Shown here: positions 6,707-19,026 of the stretch, piece by piece
How positions within the stretch are numbered: the first letter of the stretch is position 1
Layout of the letters: each line of letters opens with the position of its first letter
Origin: a virus
Direction: 5' to 3' (one strand)
Length of the DNA stretch: 26,974 nucleotides
Virus record (IMG/VR): IMGVR_UViG_3300044858_001994
Location: 1-26,974 of that record
Notes under the pieces: model-generated
Databases searched by the model: none
Seen by the model: the letters and a program-made list of their open reading frames with translations, nothing else
Told to the model about the DNA's origin: nothing
Position numbers and translations under genes: made by a program

Positions 6707-6740
6707 TTTACCGTTCATCATTTTATTTTACCGTTCGTCA
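6707..6740 (+). promoter_or_regulatory. Paired operator boxes (copy A), 20-bp spacing
   Basis: Two 14-bp boxes, TTTACCGTTCATCA (6707-6720) and TTTACCGTTCGTCA (6727-6740), differ at one base and are exactly 20 bp apart, about two helix turns. The first is identical to a box at 17640-17653, also one of a 20-bp pair upstream of a promoter. They lie just upstream of the -33 element at 6748, as expected for an activator or repressor site. The binding protein is unknown. Confidence 0.7.
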
Positions 6741-6747
6741 CTTTTTA

Positions 6748-6779
6748 TTTGGTTGCTATGTGCAAAACCTGTATATTTG
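6748..6779 (+). promoter_or_regulatory. Bacteroidota-type promoter A
   Basis: -33 element TTTG (6748-6751), 20-bp spacer, -7 element TATATTTG (6772-6779), matching the Bacteroidota consensus TTG-(17-23)-TAnnTTTG. The spacer includes AAAACCTGT (6764-6772), shared with promoter B. Transcription should begin near 6786, leaving a leader of about 35 bases before ATG 6822. Confidence 0.75.
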
Positions 6780-6821: not shown

Positions 6822-7010
6822 ATGCAAAACGCAACAACGACTTTCAAAGAAGTCAAAAAACTTTGGAACGCACAACCATTCCTTGAAAAACTTTTATTCT
6901 TAATGAATAAACTTAAAATTTCACAGGAAGAAGCTGAAAGGTTGTCAAAATTAGAATTTGATAAAATGGCAATAGCCTATAAATATCAAATTTACTTATT
7001 CTTAAATTAA
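6822..7010 (+). CDS. Small hypothetical protein, first gene after promoter A
   Basis: 62 aa from ATG 6822, the first start after the promoter; the frame's 5' extension to 6753 would run through the promoter and is rejected. The protein (MQNATTTFKEVKKLWN...) is mostly helical, with a hydrophobic stretch LEKLLFLMNKL and a possible helix-turn-helix-like stretch ISQEEAERLSKLEFDKMA, not strong enough to call. Its N-terminus MxNAT matches that of the first gene after promoter B (MKNAT). Being promoter-proximal, it may be made early and in quantity. Function unknown. Confidence 0.65.
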   Translation: MQNATTTFKEVKKLWNAQPFLEKLLFLMNKLKISQEEAERLSKLEFDKMAIAYKYQIYLFLN

Positions 7011-7018
7011 AAAAAAAT

Positions 7019-7041
7019 CAGGGGTGCGACTGTAACGCACA
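7019..7041 (+). repeat. Hairpin repeat, copy A
   Basis: CAGGGGTGCGACTGT followed by AACGCACA. The arms GTGCG (7024-7028) and CGCAC (7036-7040) form a 5-bp stem with a 7-base loop. The same sequence, with two extra loop bases, recurs at 18045-18069. Here it ends 8 bases before ATG 7049, so it could control translation or mRNA processing of the next gene. Confidence 0.65.
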
Positions 7042-7048
7042 AATTTTT

Positions 7049-7237
7049 ATGAATACAGAAACACAAACAACAATAAGCCAACGTGCGGCGGATTATGCCG
7101 GTACTTTGGGATTCAGTCGCGGTTCTTTAACTTTAATTTTACAATATGTAAAAGAAAACAACATTGAACGTATTGAAGAACTTGCGCATTCAGCTTTAGA
7201 AGAAATTGAAAACGTATTTATTAAACACCAATTATGA
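7049..7237 (+). CDS. Small hypothetical protein (62 aa)
   Basis: Starts MNTETQTTISQRAADYAGTL and continues as a helical, acidic protein (YVKENNIERIEELAHSALEEIENVF). No membrane segment or cysteine motif. Its start lies 8 bases after the hairpin repeat, and its last codon overlaps the next ATG by 4 bases, a translational coupling pattern. It begins the run of small genes that lead to the ERF recombinase. Confidence 0.6.
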   Translation: MNTETQTTISQRAADYAGTLGFSRGSLTLILQYVKENNIERIEELAHSALEEIENVFIKHQL

Positions 7238-7482
7238 ATTTAGAATTAAAACTTTTTAAACTTCAGGAAAACGTGCGATATTTCCAATGGTTGTTTGACA
7301 GAAGCAACGGGACAGATGCACGTAAAAAAATGGAAATGTTAAGTTCGGCAAAAGAAAATTTAAAGAACTTTAAAAAGAAACATTATCCTGAAATGTTAGT
7401 TCAACCAAAAAACCCGTTCCCGCCGATACCATTTACGCCAATGTCGGATTGGACAGAAAAATTTGAAGAATACGAATTTTAA
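7234..7482 (+). CDS. Small hypothetical protein (82 aa)
   Basis: A charged helical N-terminal half (residues 1-55, with Lys/Glu repeats such as SAKENLKNFKKKHYPE) is followed by a Pro-rich linker (NPFPPIPFTPMSDW) and an acidic aromatic tail (EKFEEYEF). It overlaps the upstream gene by 4 bases and precedes the ERF gene by 17 bases. Co-transcription with ERF suggests a role in DNA metabolism, but no domain is recognised. Confidence 0.6.
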   Translation: MNLELKLFKLQENVRYFQWLFDRSNGTDARKKMEMLSSAKENLKNFKKKHYPEMLVQPKNPFPPIPFTPMSDWTEKFEEYEF

Positions 7483-7499
7483 AACCAAAAATAAAACCT

Positions 7500-8048
7500 A
7501 TGAACATTTACAAAATTCAGGCGGAATTAAAAGCGCCAAAGGGTCAATTAAACAAGTTCGGCAATTACAGGTACAGAAGCGCCGAAGACATTATTGAAGC
7601 GGTTAAGCCAATATTGGCAAAAGAAAAAACCTGTTTAATAATTAGTGACGAAATTGTGCAAGTTGGCGACAGAATTTATGTCAAAGCAACTGCAACTTTG
7701 ATTACAAACGAAGACAATTCAATTAGTGCGCACGGTTGGGCGCGTGAAGAAGAAGTTAAGAAAGGAATGGATGCCGCACAAATAACCGGGTCAGCTTCTT
7801 CGTATGCGCGTAAATACGCATTAAACGGACTGTTTGCGATTGACGATACAAAAGACGCAGACGCAACCAACGAACACAAAGACGAAGTTGGTGACGATAA
7901 ACGTTTATATTTGCAGACATTATTGGAAAACACGCCGTTTACAGAAGACAAAAAGAATAAAATGGCAATTAAAATTGAATCATTTACAAAAGAAGACGAT
8001 TATAATAAAGCATTTAAAGTATTACAAGCAAACCAAATTAATAAATAA
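7500..8048 (+). CDS. erf: ERF-family single-strand annealing recombinase
   Basis: 182 aa. Hallmarks of the ERF superfamily are all present: KFGNYRYRSAEDIIEAVKPIL near residues 19-40, a beta-sheet region (VGDRIYVKATATLI), and the strongly conserved block MDAAQITGSASSYARKYALNGLFAIDDTKDADAT around residues 95-128. Such proteins form rings on single-stranded DNA and anneal complementary strands during phage recombination and genome circularisation. The variable C-terminal part (after about residue 130) is charged. The stop overlaps the next start by one base. Nearby genes for an SSB-tailed protein, a VRR-NUC nuclease and an exonuclease are plausible partners. Confidence 0.9.
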   Translation: MNIYKIQAELKAPKGQLNKFGNYRYRSAEDIIEAVKPILAKEKTCLIISDEIVQVGDRIYVKATATLITNEDNSISAHGWAREEEVKKGMDAAQITGSASSYARKYALNGLFAIDDTKDADATNEHKDEVGDDKRLYLQTLLENTPFTEDKKNKMAIKIESFTKEDDYNKAFKVLQANQINK

Positions 8049-8443
8049 TGCGCGAATATACCATTGAAGAATTAACGAATAAGGCGGAAAAAATGTTGGA
8101 TTATTTACAGATGCCATTACCTAAAAATGATACGGCGGATTATCACGACGCTTTGATTAAACGATTGGACACGCTAAACGTTGCAATGACACAATCAGGC
8201 GAATACAGAACCGCCGCAGAATATAAGATTGAATGCGTTATTGATATGGAAATTGGCGACAAAATACATGAAATAATGGAAGGTAAATTGGCAACTTCAA
8301 CTGTAAATATGTGGGTTAAAAGCAAGGCGCGTGAATGGTCACGTTTAAAAAACGCGTTTGACAGAATTAACGCTTCTTCAGTTCACCAATTAGACGCCAT
8401 TCGTTCAATTTTAAGTTGGGAAAAAGCCAAAATAAATTTATAA
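8048..8443 (+). CDS. Conserved hypothetical protein next to ERF
   Basis: 131 aa, all-helical and charged: an N-terminal helix MREYTIEELTNKAEKMLDYL, a middle segment rich in Ala, Glu and Arg (YRTAAEYKIECVIDMEIGDKIHEIM), and a C-terminal region VNMWVKSKAREWSRLKNAFDRIN. No catalytic motif visible. Genes of this type often follow ERF in Bacteroidota phages, suggesting a recombination accessory or loader. It is coupled to ERF by a one-base overlap. One of only two CATG sites in the window (8267-8270) lies here. Confidence 0.6.
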   Translation: MREYTIEELTNKAEKMLDYLQMPLPKNDTADYHDALIKRLDTLNVAMTQSGEYRTAAEYKIECVIDMEIGDKIHEIMEGKLATSTVNMWVKSKAREWSRLKNAFDRINASSVHQLDAIRSILSWEKAKINL

Positions 8444-8446
8444 AAA

Positions 8447-8662
8447 ATGAATCAGGAAGTATATCAGGATTACGAAAATGGAATGCAAAATTTGCTACCA
8501 ATGGAACGTCAAATGTTATTAGCTAAAGTTTACCATTATTGTTGGTATTCACCGGAAGCTTATCAGGAATTAAGCGCATTCCTTGCAAAGTGGGAAAATG
8601 AATGTGAATTTAAAGCAGTATTTTTTAATCAGGATTCAGAAGAATCCACAAACCAAATATAA
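8447..8662 (+). CDS. Small hypothetical protein (71 aa)
   Basis: MNQEVYQDYENGMQNLLPME opening, then a Tyr- and Trp-rich helical middle (KVYHYCWYSPEAYQELSAFLAKWENE) and an acidic tail. The 3-base gap to the previous gene and 1-base gap to the next support a real gene. It sits between the ERF partner and a protein with an SSB-like tail, so single-strand DNA handling is possible but unproven. Confidence 0.55.
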   Translation: MNQEVYQDYENGMQNLLPMERQMLLAKVYHYCWYSPEAYQELSAFLAKWENECEFKAVFFNQDSEESTNQI

Positions 8663-8663
8663 A

Positions 8664-8906
8664 ATGTCAGAAGTAAAAAAAGAAAATTGGGGTGCTTGGA
8701 AGCGCCAAACGCCTAAAGGTGAAGTAATTAATTTTGCAATCAATGGTAAAAAGTATTCAATGTGGGTTAATTCTTACAAAACAGACCCAAAACACCCGGA
8801 TTACAAAATTTATGAAGATACTTACGTTGCGCCAACAAATGCCAATAATGCGCCTATAAATGCGCCAATTCAATCTTTAGAAGATAACAACGATTTACCC
8901 TTTTAA
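8664..8906 (+). CDS. Small protein with SSB-like acidic C-terminal tip
   Basis: 80 aa from ATG 8664, one base after the previous stop; the frame's extension to 8583 would overlap that gene by 80 bases. The body (KKENWGAWKRQTPKGEVINF, then FAINGKKYSMWVNSYK) looks like a small beta-barrel with exposed Trp, Tyr and Lys, followed by an Asn/Ala/Pro-rich linker and the tip EDNNDLPF. That end strongly resembles the acidic DxDxPF tail by which bacterial SSB recruits partners. It is too short for a classical OB fold, so it may be a minimal SSB or a decoy of host SSB. Neighbours (ERF, replication genes) agree. Confidence 0.6.
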   Translation: MSEVKKENWGAWKRQTPKGEVINFAINGKKYSMWVNSYKTDPKHPDYKIYEDTYVAPTNANNAPINAPIQSLEDNNDLPF

Positions 8907-8908
8907 TT

Positions 8909-9340
8909 ATGCAAACACTAAAAAGCGATATTTTAGAATTTTACAAGTCACAAAGACAAAATTTACGATTGCTGCATAATATAATGAAAGAAAACAATTT
9001 AATTAAACAGGACGAAGTTATTATTGACCCTGAAGTTTCAAGTGAAGCAAAGAAAATATCTTTGTTGGTTGAAGAAATATTTGATACTAAAATGTCTGTA
9101 AAAAGCCGAACTAAAAACATTGTTGACGCAAGGAAAGCGGCTGCGTATTTAATACGAAAGCATACTAAACTTTCATTAAGCGAAATACGACAGTTTATTG
9201 GAGTTGGCGACCATACAACAGTAATGTATAATATTAATTCAGCAAAGGACTTAATTGACACGGCGGATTGGTTCAGAAATAAAATTGCATTCCTTGAAAA
9301 AAGAATTGAAAAAAGCATTATATTTGCAGACAGGAATTAA
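8909..9340 (+). CDS. DnaA domain-IV-like DNA-binding protein
   Basis: 143 aa. Residues about 62-126 match the C-terminal DNA-binding domain of DnaA: KSRTKNIVDARKAAAYLIRK, then LSLSEIRQFIGVGDHTTV and a following helix. The DHTTV loop-helix is the DnaA signature that contacts the 9-mer box. There is no AAA+ ATPase domain; residues 1-60 are a different helical segment (MQTLKSDILEFYKSQRQNLR). It probably binds DnaA boxes, either to start phage replication or to capture or block host DnaA. It lies 12 bases before the DUF4373 replication gene, which supports a replication role. Confidence 0.8.
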   Translation: MQTLKSDILEFYKSQRQNLRLLHNIMKENNLIKQDEVIIDPEVSSEAKKISLLVEEIFDTKMSVKSRTKNIVDARKAAAYLIRKHTKLSLSEIRQFIGVGDHTTVMYNINSAKDLIDTADWFRNKIAFLEKRIEKSIIFADRN

Positions 9341-11000: not shown

Positions 11001-11245
11001 ACAGGGTTAACAATATTCCATTTGGGAAGCGTAAAGGGACGATTCAAAAAGGTTGGGCGGACTTACAAGGATACACAGAAAAAGGCGTTTATGTTGCGGT
11101 TGAAGTCAAAAAGATTGGTGACCGATTAAGCTTGGAACAAAAAGAAAGGTTAAAAGATATTTACGAATGTGGTGGAATTGTGTATATTTGTACTGAAGTG
11201 GACAATAAACCAACTTTAATTGAATGGTCAAAAATGAAATTTTAG
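10931..11245 (+). CDS. VRR-NUC domain nuclease
   Basis: 104 aa, a stand-alone VRR-NUC (PD-(D/E)xK) nuclease. The active-site residues are visible: D44 in KGWADLQGY, E58 and K60 in VAVEVKK, and Q70 in LSLEQKERL, followed by the Gly-rich CGGIVYICTE strand. This family cuts branched DNA such as Holliday junctions or replication forks and often travels with phage recombination genes. With ERF and the exonuclease it would complete a recombination set. The start ATG 10931 is in the overlap with the previous gene; the end overlaps the next by 22 bases. Confidence 0.83.
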   Translation: MDISANELTKWAKSNLEYIGYRLNRVNNIPFGKRKGTIQKGWADLQGYTEKGVYVAVEVKKIGDRLSLEQKERLKDIYECGGIVYICTEVDNKPTLIEWSKMKF

Positions 11246-11724
11246 CGGAATATTGGGATTCAAAGGAAGTCAACGACGCCTTTGGGAAAATGCAACCTGA
11301 AGAATTGCAGTACGATTTGAAAGCTGAAGTTTTTTTAGTTCTTTGTGAAATGGACGAATCAAAGTTGGTTGGAATGTACCAAAGAAGCGAATTAAAATTT
11401 TACATTGTGCGAATAATGTTAAATATGATTAAAAGCGACAGAAGTACATTTTATAAGAATTACAGGAATTACACGGAATTTGTTGGCAATGAAGTAAACA
11501 AGGAATTGACGCGACTAAACGAAGAACCGACAGAATTGTTTGAAAAACTTGAAAGGAATTTAGAAGATTTACATTGGTACAATAAAGAAATTTTGAAACT
11601 GTATGCGATTGACTTTAAGAAGAACGCAAAAGAATTAAGCAGAAAAACAGGAATTCCTTATATGTCCATTGTCAGAACTATAAACAAAACCAAAAAATTA
11701 ATGAAAACAAATATTAGAAAATGA
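11224..11724 (+). CDS. Sigma-factor-like or HTH transcription regulator
   Basis: 166 aa. Residues about 30-80 are helical with LKAEVFLVLCEMDESKLVGM and FYIVRIMLNMIKSDRSTFYKNYR, like sigma region 2-type segments. The C-terminal part (LHWYNKEILKLYAIDFKKNA followed by ELSRKTGIPYMSIVRTINKT) looks like a region 4-type helix-turn-helix. Phages of Bacteroidota often encode such ECF-like proteins. It could redirect RNA polymerase to late genes or act at the paired operator boxes; both are guesses. It overlaps the nuclease gene by 22 bases and the next by 4. Confidence 0.6.
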   Translation: MVKNEILAEYWDSKEVNDAFGKMQPEELQYDLKAEVFLVLCEMDESKLVGMYQRSELKFYIVRIMLNMIKSDRSTFYKNYRNYTEFVGNEVNKELTRLNEEPTELFEKLERNLEDLHWYNKEILKLYAIDFKKNAKELSRKTGIPYMSIVRTINKTKKLMKTNIRK

Positions 11725-15634: not shown

Positions 15635-15872
15635 AATTTATTTGGATTACTTTGGGTACGGAATTGAAGATTTTATTCCGTGTGAAGTATGCGGACAAAA
15701 AGCGGTTGACATTCACCATATTGAAGCAAGGGGAATGGGCGGAACAAAAGAAAAGGACAGGATTGAAAATTTAATGGCGCTTTGTCGATATTGTCACGTC
15801 GTTATGGGGGACACAAAAACACATTTGGAATATTTAAAAGATAAGCATAAAGAAAAATTAAAATATAGTTAG
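15618..15872 (+). CDS. HNH endonuclease
   Basis: 84 aa from ATG 15618; the frame extends to a TTG at 15591, but the ATG gives a normal N-terminus (MKNYTKIYLDYFGYG). The nuclease core is complete: CEVCG zinc knuckle, VDIHHIEARGMGG with the paired His, RIENLMALCRYCHVVM with the Asn and second Cys pair and final His. HNH proteins next to terminase often take part in DNA packaging or cos cutting; they can also be homing enzymes. The gene's last two codons overlap the 5' arm of the tRNA-like gene. Confidence 0.85.
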   Translation: MKNYTKIYLDYFGYGIEDFIPCEVCGQKAVDIHHIEARGMGGTKEKDRIENLMALCRYCHVVMGDTKTHLEYLKDKHKEKLKYS

Positions 15873-15937
15873 TTAGTGTAATGGTAGCACACCCCTTTGA
15901 AACGGGGGGAAGTCAATGTTCAAATCATTACTAACTT
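15867..15937 (+). tRNA. tRNA-like gene, anticodon GAA (Phe) by my folding
   Basis: Acceptor AGTTAGT (15867-15873) pairs with ACTAACT (15930-15936). T8 and A9 are followed by a D arm GTG/CAC with GG in the loop. The anticodon arm is CCCCT/GGGGG with loop TTGAAAC, giving GAA at 15899-15901 after T33. The T arm is AATG/CATT with a normal TTCAAAT loop. The T stem has only 4 bp, as if one base were deleted, and no CCA is encoded. The D arm resembles that of Gln tRNAs. It may be functional or decaying. Confidence 0.6.
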
Positions 15938-15952
15938 CAAAAAAGGCAATAA

Positions 15953-16471: not shown

Positions 16472-17623
16472 ATGCGCATTGAATTACCAACGCCACACCT
16501 AAACCAAAAAAAGATATTGGACGCTGAAAAGCGTTTTATCGTTATTATGTGCGGTCGTCGTTTTGGGAAGTCTGAATTGTCGCAAATACTTATAATCAAA
16601 GAAGCATTAAAAGGCGGGAATGTTGCATACATAACACCGACATACGGATTGGCGCAAGTATTTTTTGAACGTCTTACAAAAGTATTACCATTTAAAAGCA
16701 ATATTTCAAAGCTGAAAATCTATTGTCCCAACGAAGGGTCAATTGAATTTTTTACCGGCGAACGATTGGACAACTTGCGCGGTCGTAAATTCCATTTGGT
16801 TATTATTGACGAAGCTGCATTTATTGCGGATTTAGAAGACGGTTGGAATAATAGCATACGCCCGACGCTGACCGACTATGAAGGGAAGGCGGTTTTTCTG
16901 TCAACACCACGCGGCAAAAACTTCTTTTATTCCCTGTTTATGAAAATGGGCGAAAACGATTGGCAAAGCTTTAAATTTAGTACATACGACAACCCGCACA
17001 TTAACCCGCGCGAAATAGACGAAGCACGAATTCAATTACCTGAAGTTGTATTTGAACAGGAATATATGGCGAACCCGTCCGAGAATAGCGCAAACCCTTT
17101 TGGCAACGCATTCATTAAACGCTGCGTCAAACCTATTTCAGCGCAACCAATTGTTTGTTATGGCATTGACCTTGCAAAGTCTGTGGATTTTACAGTTATA
17201 ATTGGATTGGATAAGGACGGCAACGTGGCGTATTTTGACCGCTTTCAAATGGATTGGCATAATACCAAAGAAACAATTAAAAGGTTGCCACCTGCGCCAA
17301 TTGTGGTGGATTCATCAGGGGTTGGCGACCCGATATTAGAAGACTTGCTTCGTGAAGGTTTAAACATTGAAGGTTTGAAGTTTACAAGTCAATCAAAGCA
17401 ACAATTAATGGAAGGTTTGGCTTCAGCAATCCAACAGGGACGAATTGGATTCCCTGAAGGTGTTATTGTTGACGAATTAGACGTTTTTGAATATCAATTT
17501 ACTTCGCACGGCGTAAGATATTCAGCGCCTTCAGGATTTCACGACGATACCGTAATGGCTTTGGCTTTAGCGTGGCAAAACCACAATATCAAACGCGGTT
17601 CAGGGCGTTACGCCTTCGCTTAA
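16472..17623 (+). CDS. terL: Terminase large subunit (packaging ATPase/nuclease)
   Basis: 383 aa with the full TerL layout. ATPase: Walker A CGRRFGKS (G28-S34), Walker B LVIIDEA (D113, E114), coupling motif LSTPRG (S144-G148). C-terminal RNase H-like nuclease: GIDLAKSVDFT (D233), IVVDSSGVGD (D278) and GFHDDTVMAL (D356, D357). It cuts concatemeric DNA and pumps it into the prohead through the portal. It follows the small subunit directly. The stop codon lies inside the first operator box of copy B, so the downstream genes belong to a separately controlled transcript. Confidence 0.95.
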   Translation: MRIELPTPHLNQKKILDAEKRFIVIMCGRRFGKSELSQILIIKEALKGGNVAYITPTYGLAQVFFERLTKVLPFKSNISKLKIYCPNEGSIEFFTGERLDNLRGRKFHLVIIDEAAFIADLEDGWNNSIRPTLTDYEGKAVFLSTPRGKNFFYSLFMKMGENDWQSFKFSTYDNPHINPREIDEARIQLPEVVFEQEYMANPSENSANPFGNAFIKRCVKPISAQPIVCYGIDLAKSVDFTVIIGLDKDGNVAYFDRFQMDWHNTKETIKRLPPAPIVVDSSGVGDPILEDLLREGLNIEGLKFTSQSKQQLMEGLASAIQQGRIGFPEGVIVDELDVFEYQFTSHGVRYSAPSGFHDDTVMALALAWQNHNIKRGSGRYAFA

Positions 17624-17653
17624 CCGTTTATCCTTATTATTTACCGTTCATCA
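17620..17653 (+). promoter_or_regulatory. Paired operator boxes (copy B), 20-bp spacing
   Basis: TTAACCGTTTATCC (17620-17633, overlapping the terL stop) and TTTACCGTTCATCA (17640-17653); the ACCGTT cores are 20 bp apart. The second box is identical to the first box of copy A. Relative to the -33 TTTG the cores lie 38 and 58 bp upstream here, and 18 and 38 bp upstream in copy A, so all fall on one 20-bp lattice. Confidence 0.7.
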
Positions 17654-17680: not shown

Positions 17681-17713
17681 TTTGGAAGGTGTATAAAACC
17701 TGTGTTATATTTG
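17681..17713 (+). promoter_or_regulatory. Bacteroidota-type promoter B
   Basis: -33 TTTG (17681-17684), 21-bp spacer, -7 TATATTTG (17706-17713). AAAACCTGT (17695-17703) in the spacer is shared with promoter A. Transcription should start near 17720, with about 17 bases of leader before ATG 17737. Confidence 0.75.
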
Positions 17714-17736: not shown

Positions 17737-18033
17737 ATGAAAAATGCAACCTTATCTTTAAATTGGAATGTAAATAAGCTTTCTGAAATTTTAGAATCAA
17801 AAGGCTTTGACTTGTATTTATCAACAAAATCATTGAAGCACGAAGAACGTAATATTGTACACGATATTTATACCTGTACGAATGGTAAGTTTGACGGCGA
17901 AGTTGTTGACGTACATTATAACTTTGAAACAGGTTTAATTCACGACGTGGCAACTTCTTCACAAAGACATACAGAAGACGGCGGAAGTTATGAAACAACG
18001 CCTAAAATTATTAATTATTTTAATACATTATAA
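17737..18033 (+). CDS. Hypothetical protein, first gene after promoter B
   Basis: 98 aa from ATG 17737; the frame's extension to 17572 runs through the promoter and terL and is rejected. It starts MKNATLSLNW, then SEILESKGFDLYLSTKSLK, and a C-terminal beta-rich half (GEVVDVHYNFETGLIHDVAT) with an acidic/His end. No domain recognised. Its place right after a strong promoter and before the second hairpin repeat mirrors the gene at 6822. Confidence 0.65.
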   Translation: MKNATLSLNWNVNKLSEILESKGFDLYLSTKSLKHEERNIVHDIYTCTNGKFDGEVVDVHYNFETGLIHDVATSSQRHTEDGGSYETTPKIINYFNTL

Positions 18034-18038
18034 CCTAT

Positions 18039-18069
18039 CCCCCGCAGGGGTGCGACTGTCCAACGCACA
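18039..18069 (+). repeat. Hairpin repeat, copy B
   Basis: CCCC (18040-18043) can pair with GGGG (18047-18050). GTGCG (18050-18054) pairs with CGCAC (18064-18068) around a 9-base loop. Positions 18045-18069 match 7019-7041 except for two extra loop bases (CC). It ends 16 bases before ATG 18085 and follows the stop of the promoter-proximal gene. Confidence 0.65.
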
Positions 18070-18084
18070 TTTAAAACTTATACA

Positions 18085-18237
18085 ATGCAAAACAGACTAA
18101 AAACACAACAGGACAAATTAAACGAACATTATGCAGCAATGCAAAAGCAATACGCCAAAGAATCTTTGGGTATGGGTTGGTTTTTTGCGATTATTACGGT
18201 AGCTTTATTGTTAACGGCTTTAATTGAAAACTTATAA
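18085..18237 (+). CDS. Small tail-anchored membrane protein (50 aa)
   Basis: MQNRLKTQQDKLNEHYAAMQ forms a charged helix of about 30 residues, followed by one membrane span (WFFAIITVALLLTALI) and a two- to three-residue tail. It begins 16 bases after the hairpin repeat and ends one base before the next ATG. The layout suggests an inner-membrane protein facing the cytoplasm. Function unknown. Confidence 0.65.
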   Translation: MQNRLKTQQDKLNEHYAAMQKQYAKESLGMGWFFAIITVALLLTALIENL

Positions 18238-18238
18238 T

Positions 18239-18391
18239 ATGCCATATTCAACTTGCTGCGGTGCGCACACCAATTACCCTGAAATTGATATTTGCCCGGA
18301 ATGTTTAGACCATTGCGATTGGGAAGAAGAAGACGAAGACGAAGAAGACGCTGACAATCAAATTGAACAGTATAAAATAAACAATTTATAA
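18239..18391 (+). CDS. Small Cys-rich, acidic zinc-binding-like protein (50 aa)
   Basis: MPYSTCCGAHTNYPEIDICP then ECLDHC: a CCG...CPEC..HC pattern that could bind one zinc, followed by an acidic run (EEEDEDEEDAD). Small proteins with this TCCGA...CPEC layout are common in Flavobacteria and their phages. One base separates it from the previous stop. It may bind partner proteins through the acidic tail. Exact role unknown. Confidence 0.65.
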   Translation: MPYSTCCGAHTNYPEIDICPECLDHCDWEEEDEDEEDADNQIEQYKINNL

Positions 18392-18397
18392 ACTTAC

Positions 18398-18467
18398 GCC
18401 GCCTGAAGAATTTTTAATATTAAAAAATAACAAAGATAGTAATTTGGTGAACTTTGGGCGGCTTTTT
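18398..18467 (+). terminator. Long-range hairpin with T-run; possible three-way-junction RNA
   Basis: GCCGCC (18398-18403) pairs with GGCGGC (18457-18462), which is followed by TTTTT. Inside are a perfect A/T inverted repeat TTTTTAATATTAAAAA (18411-18426) and CAAAG (18431-18435) pairing with CTTTG (18452-18456), directly adjoining the GGCGGC arm. It could end transcription of the two upstream genes or regulate the gene at 18480. Confidence 0.45.
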
Positions 18468-18479
18468 AAAACTAACTGT

Positions 18480-18653
18480 ATGTCAAAAAATCAATATTTA
18501 ATGGGTCAGGAATATTTGCTTCGCCTTGAAAACGAATGCTTAATTGAAAAGATTGCAAAGATTGAAAAGGAATTGGGATTAAAAGAAAAGGAAATTAAAG
18601 ATTTAAGAATTCAATTAAAAATGATTAATTTAGCAATGGCAGACGTTTCTTAA
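18480..18653 (+). CDS. Small coiled-coil protein (57 aa)
   Basis: From ATG 18480 (the frame's TTG at 18444 lies in the structured leader). MSKNQYLMGQEYLLRLENEC and KIAKIEKELGLKEKEIKDLR show regular heptads, so it likely forms a dimeric coiled coil. No other domain. It starts 13 bases after the T-run of the preceding hairpin. Function unknown. Confidence 0.6.
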   Translation: MSKNQYLMGQEYLLRLENECLIEKIAKIEKELGLKEKEIKDLRIQLKMINLAMADVS

Positions 18654-18663
18654 AACTTATAAT

Positions 18664-19026
18664 ATGATTAAAAACTTTGAAGATATAACCTGCGAATTGA
18701 CGCCTGACGAAAAGCGTTTAGTTCCTGTAATTATCAGGGGTTTAAACCTGAAAAGCAAAGCCAACCCAATTAAAGGCGCGGAAATAGTCGCAGCAATTAA
18801 CGGGCAAAAAGAAAGGTACGGAATTAAACAATTTTCTGAACCGCGTTTACGTAAAATCGTTAACTTTATAAGGTCAGAAGGAATATTGCCTGTTATTGGG
18901 ACGTCAAATGGTTATTATATATCATACGACGCTGACGAACTAAACGGGCAAATTGAAAGCTTAACGCAACGCGCTGACGCAATTATGTCAAGTGCAAACG
19001 GATTAAAAAAATGGATTACTATTTAG
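18664..19026 (+). CDS. Winged-helix-like putative DNA-binding protein
   Basis: 120 aa. The pattern TPDEKRLVPVIIRGL, PIKGAEIVAAINGQK, FSEPRLRKIVNFIRSEGILP, then VIGTSNGYYISYDADEL is a winged helix with recognition helix near residues 57-70 and a GYY wing, followed by a helix (LTQRADAIMSSANGL). Similar proteins are common in phages of Bacteroidota next to terminase or replication genes. It may regulate phage transcription, and is a candidate ligand of the twin boxes, though nothing links them directly. It overlaps the next gene by 16 bases. Confidence 0.6.
   Translation: MIKNFEDITCELTPDEKRLVPVIIRGLNLKSKANPIKGAEIVAAINGQKERYGIKQFSEPRLRKIVNFIRSEGILPVIGTSNGYYISYDADELNGQIESLTQRADAIMSSANGLKKWITI

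Follow-up and report, generated by a model that had tools for sequence, protein, structure and literature searches.

Two promoters of a Bacteroidota phage are each preceded by a twin box that is probably a LytTR-type operator, through which a LytTR regulator of the host would activate an early operon and a variable cassette behind the terminase gene. The DNA analysed, hereafter the window, is the 26,974-base viral record IMGVR_UViG_3300044858_001994. Judged from its -33 TTTG / -7 TANNTTTG promoters and its Erf, terminase and tail genes, it is a Bacteroidota phage.

Twin boxes and promoters of the window

Exact matches to TTWACCGTTYRTCM occur in the window at 6707, 6727, 17620 and 17640, four on the + strand and none on the − strand. 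They form two pairs, copy A and copy B (Table 1). As the preliminary description had claimed, the sequence at 6707 is repeated exactly at 17640 (TTTACCGTTCATCA in both positions), and the ACCGTT cores have a period of 20 bp in each pair, which leaves a gap of 11 bp between the 9-mers. The distances from the cores to the -33 TTTG are 38 and 18 bp in copy A and 58 and 38 bp in copy B and fall, as proposed, on one 20-bp lattice. Measured to the -7 element TATATTTG, they are 62 and 42 bp in copy A and 83 and 63 bp in copy B, off the lattice by one base because the promoter spacers are 20 bp (A) and 21 bp (B) long. The sequence said to be common to both promoters was located in each of them (AAAACCTGT at 6764-6772 and 17695-17703). 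Copy A ends 9 bp upstream of the -33 element. Assuming the predicted transcriptional starts, the centre of the pair lies at approximately -62 (A) and -83 (B). The promoter consensus of Bacteroidota consists of TTTG and TANNTTTG, approximately 20 bp apart; promoter A (TTTG-N20-TATATTTG) and promoter B (TTTG-N21-TATATTTG) both have the form of a Bacteroidota primary-sigma promoter.

When up to three mismatches were allowed, 40 pattern matches were found in the window compared with 39.9 expected, which is chance level. The signal is thus confined to the exact, paired copies, and whether chance could account for them had to be decided by conservation. Conservation in the relatives described below settles this point: the twin-box arrangement is not due to chance.

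Table 1. Location of the twin boxes, the predicted promoters and the genes behind them
Feature	Position	Strand	Remarks
Box A1, TTTACCGTTCATCA, core 6710-6719	6707-6720	+	Sequence; 9-mer CCGTTCATC, same as AlgR site at rhlI
Box A2, TTTACCGTTCGTCA, core 6730-6739	6727-6740	+	Sequence; 9-mer CCGTTCGTC, identical to the AlgR sites algD-RB1/RB2
Promoter A: -33 TTTG 6748-6751, 20-bp spacer with AAAACCTGT, -7 TATATTTG 6772-6779	6748-6779	+	Predicted start ~6786
Small ORFs, start of operon A	6822-7010, 7049-7237, 7234-7482	+	
Erf recombinase	7500-8048	+	PF04404, 7.3e-40
Further ORFs, operon A	8048-8443, 8447-8662, 8664-8906	+	
DnaA-domain-IV protein	8909-9340	+	Bac_DnaA_C, 5.9e-15
Box B1, TTAACCGTTTATCC, core 17623-17632	17620-17633	+	Overlaps the TerL stop codon (17621-17623)
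Box B2, TTTACCGTTCATCA, core 17643-17652	17640-17653	+	Sequence
Promoter B: -33 TTTG 17681-17684, 21-bp spacer with AAAACCTGT, -7 TATATTTG 17706-17713	17681-17713	+	Predicted start ~17720
Cassette ORFs behind promoter B	17737-18033, 18085-18237, 18224-18391, 18444-18653	+	
phrog_2113 protein (HTH)	18664-19026	+	End of the B cassette (17737-19026)

According to their order and strand, the genes from 6822 to 9340 presumably form one transcript. The cassette behind promoter B is variable, its first gene not being the same across relatives. A Lin1244-type initiator is also encoded in the window. The DnaA-domain-IV protein stands alone, without an ATPase domain, and is found at 39-94% identity in box-bearing and in box-less relatives. 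The protein at 11224-11724, previously listed as an HTH protein, looks by eye like a small sigma-70-like protein and has no Pfam or PHROG family above the cut-off; homologues are present in the unrelated box-bearing phages G051, G052 and G061. A repeated element, CAGGGGTGCGACTGT-(CCA)ACGCAC, at 7019-7046 and 18045-18072 forms a small GTGCG/CGCAC hairpin directly 5′ of the gene that comes second after each of promoters A and B, and the element behind promoter B also occurs in six other records (G001, G003, G005, G013, G023 and G049). The genome further carries a gene for tRNA-Phe (GAA) at 15866-15938.

Conservation and helical phasing in viral genomes

A terminase search yielded 80 relatives, in which pairs after TerL were counted with at most one mismatch per box. 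The pair follows the TerL stop codon in 54 of them, always at 20 bp, while 26 have none. The GTT form is found in 36 relatives, namely all of the 36 closest, and the ACCGCTTATC form in 18. In these relatives the decamer ACCG[CT]T[TC][AG]TC is nearly confined to the two sites and to the same strand, with one exception on the reverse strand (L067). The copy A pair is kept in G005, G007, G017, G019, G020, G023 and G049, and both pairs were seen in records covering more of the genome, whose map spans approximately 32 kb. Relatives of the GCT and box-less groups retain promoter A behind a terminator, without boxes, and some box-less relatives are devoid of the entire B cassette. Since some relatives retain promoters without boxes, the boxes are not indispensable. 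The prediction that close relatives would carry the boxes upstream of the same genes therefore held for the closest ones, but more distant relatives have the promoters and are boxless at A and sometimes at B. In three relatives (L023, L035, L082), exactly 20 bp are missing between the box and promoter B, so that the helical face is preserved.

Arrays of a unit of approximately 22 bp (TTATGACCGATATTCGGTTCT, TGATTGATAAACGGATCATTTT) lie between the TerL stop codon and the promoter or twin box in some relatives (L019, L020, L022, L024, L026, L029, L047, L058, L061), partly with reversed GATAAACGG half-sites; they are absent from the window and may conceivably be ends of insertion sequences. The box-less relatives L042-L044, L048, L049, L051, L052, L057, L065, L071, L083 and L084 carry a TAACTCATTGATTTACAA-like motif after TerL, which in L084 is palindromic in part; the unrelated L186 has one resembling it ahead of its triple box. 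Among cultured phages, we found no relative of the window at the DNA level, TerL relatives of less than 35% identity at best and, by short BLAST, none with the twin box. Tenacibaculum phage pT24 has the promoter alone in common with the window.

Scanning viral contigs for the pair returned at least 119 stretches, and among the matches listed many encode no protein recognisably shared with it. The same architecture recurs in phages whose overlap with the window in gene content does not go beyond a few genes of the tail, sigma-like or recombination kind; many of these box-bearing records are fragments. In unrelated phages, the second core is mostly 42 bp away from the -7 element, as in copy A, and a terminator-like hairpin with a T run often precedes the pair. 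In one of them (G055, L154), an Erf-type recombinase comes next after the pair, the kind of operon found behind copy A.

Among 164 distinct pairs at the viral loci listed, 156 have a spacing of 20 bp, six of 21, one of 19 and one of 25 bp, a set which the first scan had enriched for 20 bp. The fair scan is therefore the one with a free gap (4-20 bp between the boxes), and here too nearly every pair is spaced at 20 bp. At 132 of the 156 sites, the -7 element follows the second core at 41-44, 50-52 or 60-63 bp only; the remaining 24 have no recognisable -7 element within range. For 34 non-redundant promoters, phasing at a 10-bp period gave R = 0.83 (p ≤ 5 × 10−5 against a uniform model). These discrete distances between pair and promoter are helical phasing. 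The earlier view of one operator type at two sites, on one face of the DNA, is borne out by this, with pairing, 20-bp period and phasing holding in relatives and in unrelated phages.

Boxes in threes or fours, each 20 bp from the next, were seen in L186, L395 and G060 (near 54473, reverse strand), which are two phages and one Saprospiraceae genome. Contig IMGVR_UViG_3300002220_001236 (L164), with Gram-positive-looking promoters, carries two ACCGTTCGTC pairs with periods of 19 and 20 bp and -10-like hexamers approximately 62 and 52 bp past the second core. Given these phased hexamers, phased twin LytTR-type sites may extend beyond phages of Bacteroidota.

Relation to LytTR sites and the candidate reader

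The general LytTR consensus is reportedly [TA][AC][CA]GTTN[AG][TG] (Nikolskaya and Galperin, in 2002), and the 9-mers of the boxes presumably fit it. Moreover, CCGTTCATC is identical to the published AlgR site at rhlI, and CCGTTCGTC to the footprinted AlgR sites RB1 and RB2 at algD (PMC4064291). LytTR proteins bind two direct repeats approximately 12 bp apart (PMC4064291); more generally, the repeats are 11-13 bp apart with a bias toward 10 bp upstream of -35 (PMC6193735), and those of AgrA are centred near -60 (PMC4227749). The 11 bp between the phage 9-mers and their position just upstream of a promoter, in helical phase with it, agree with this geometry. The preliminary description had stated that no described protein was known for the box, a statement at odds with these identities.

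The resemblance to known systems is nevertheless partial. AlgR of Pseudomonas aeruginosa belongs to the LytTR family, but its sites often occur singly, at long distances from one another or in inverted orientation, whereas the phage boxes come strictly as direct pairs with a 20-bp period and sit at Bacteroidota promoters in a genome without a regulator gene. Promoters of the AgrA/ComE/HdrR type likewise have two direct repeats 11-13 bp apart, adjoining the promoter and centred near -60; they use Gram-positive variants instead of the phage core ACCGTTYRTC, and differ from the phage in its core-to-(-7) distances of 42, 51 and 62 bp and in its having no encoded reader. Phages with quorum-sensing genes are known, as shown by the agr genes of phiCDHM1 and LytTR proteins in Pseudomonas phages (PMC11945551). 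These also link a phage to LytTR signalling, but they carry signalling or regulator genes, whereas here the operator alone is carried and the regulator is apparently that of the host. In the open-access literature, we found no paper linking LytTR sites to promoters of Bacteroidota phages.

No LytTR domain (PF04397) was detected in 46 phage records comprising the phage itself, related and unrelated phages, and a custom LytTR profile gave no match among the ORFs of 16 phage records. A LytTR gene in the phage, as expected of a phage-encoded LytTR regulon, was thus not found. Hence, the boxes are most likely read by a LytTR response regulator or a stand-alone LytTR protein of the host, although the phage may encode a LytTR fold too divergent to be detected by HMM. 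LytTR genes are plentiful in the Flavobacterium family, with 3-37 in 20 of 21 genomes, a family that may not be the phage's own host.

The alternative that a phage protein reads the boxes in a phage-only regulon, be it the DnaA-domain-IV protein, the sigma-like protein at 11224-11724 or the phrog_2113 protein, seems unlikely to us. It would account for the frequency of exact pairs in phages and their scarcity in chromosomes; several candidate DNA-binding proteins are indeed encoded, and genes 7049 and 8048 are found together with copy A. However, no protein family is common to all box-bearing phages (the best, Erf and a terminase, reach 6 of 13 groups), and the site has a LytTR signature, yet no LytTR protein is encoded. 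The candidates fare no better individually. A DnaA box, of which TTATC is a part, was rejected as the target of the DnaA-domain protein, which does not track the boxes: DnaA_C occurs in G036 and G050, which have no boxes, whereas of 20 other records with boxes that were checked G063 alone encodes it; the 19 without it include the near-full-length G055 and G065. The HTH protein at 18664, named earlier as a candidate, was rejected as well, its gene being found in box-less relatives too. The phage regulator originally envisaged is therefore improbable.

We also scanned cellular genomes, one per species, for ACCGTTCATC pairs and obtained 80 loci (0.57 Mb), many of which are coding repeats, as are many of the chromosomal matches with a spacing of 21. 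In 11 of the 80 loci, a LytTR profile identified a total of 12 LytTR ORFs, each 20-2508 bp from the pair; this is an enrichment over the approximately 1.7 that 0.57 Mb should contain at the rate of a LytTR-rich family (231 in approximately 76 Mb). Two of the LytTR-bearing loci, L327 and L371, resemble near-copies. By position alone, the occurrence of the whole set of 12 within 2.6 kb has p = 0.0015, for a cut-off picked after the data had been seen. According to Pfam, the pair is flanked in L321 by a stand-alone LytTR gene on either side and lies just behind a LytTR response regulator in L328 and before one in L369.

Exact pairs were found in one of 396 Bacteroidota genomes and in one of 61 Saprospiraceae genomes, in both cases the seed itself. 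Pairs of this kind being almost absent from chromosomes, no host regulon could be listed. With a profile built from the phage sites, none of 30 strong LytTR genes of Flavobacteriaceae was found to have a pair next to it, and autoregulation by these top genes was rejected. Both results count against a host reader. Possibly, sites in hosts are weaker or differently spaced, or the true hosts are unsampled.

Predicted mode of action and its meaning

If the boxes are read by a host LytTR protein, the two direct ACCGTTYRTC repeats of each twin box, 20 bp apart, would accommodate two subunits of this LytTR-domain factor. Located a discrete number of helical turns upstream of the promoter, on the DNA face of RNA polymerase, the factor would most likely activate transcription in a class-I-like manner, an argument made from geometry. 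Copy A would thereby serve the early operon for recombination, with the Erf recombinase, and replication, whereas the variable cassette that follows the terminase gene would be served by copy B. As each copy would start a unit, two phage transcription units would answer one host signal.

It is improbable, in our opinion, that a host LytTR protein acts at these sites as a repressor or silencer, holding the phage promoters down until a signal changes. AlgR does repress rhlI from its CCGTTCATC site (PMC4064291), box-less relatives retain similar-looking promoters, and the good -33 and -7 elements in the window may need no help. Yet the boxes are phased upstream of the -33 element and not over it, which is the usual place of a LytTR activator, and conserving sites for a host repressor would presumably gain a lytic phage little.

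We consider it very improbable that the repeats are iterons for a replication initiator, with incidental proximity to a promoter. Iterons would be in line with direct repeats of 20 bp, with the DnaA-domain protein and the Lin1244-type initiator encoded, and with the longer arrays of approximately 22-bp units beside copy B in many relatives. An array of several repeats tied to an encoded initiator was not found, however: there are just two copies per site and two sites per genome, always directly upstream of a phased promoter, and the DnaA-type initiator and the boxes are not distributed alike among the phages. Iterons were rejected for this small number of copies and their phasing to promoters.

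Activation by a host LytTR regulator has a wider implication. The standard promoter module consists of two ACCGTTYRTC repeats at 20 bp, 42, 51 or 62 bp before the -7 element. By means of it, unrelated Bacteroidota phages could well have wired their early operons convergently to one kind of host LytTR protein, a proposal to which we give an even chance. LytTR repeats and phages with agr or LytTR genes were already known; what appears to be new are LytTR-type sites at promoters of Bacteroidota phages. If the convergent wiring is true, lytic expression would read the signalling state of the host without any sensor or regulator encoded by the phage. Little is known about the timing of genes in Bacteroidota phages, and a recurrent, recognisable operator makes direct testing possible. 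Once the reader is found, one LytTR regulator out of the many in Bacteroidota would have a binding site assigned to it, and phage genomes would be a source of near-consensus sites for regulators of their hosts.
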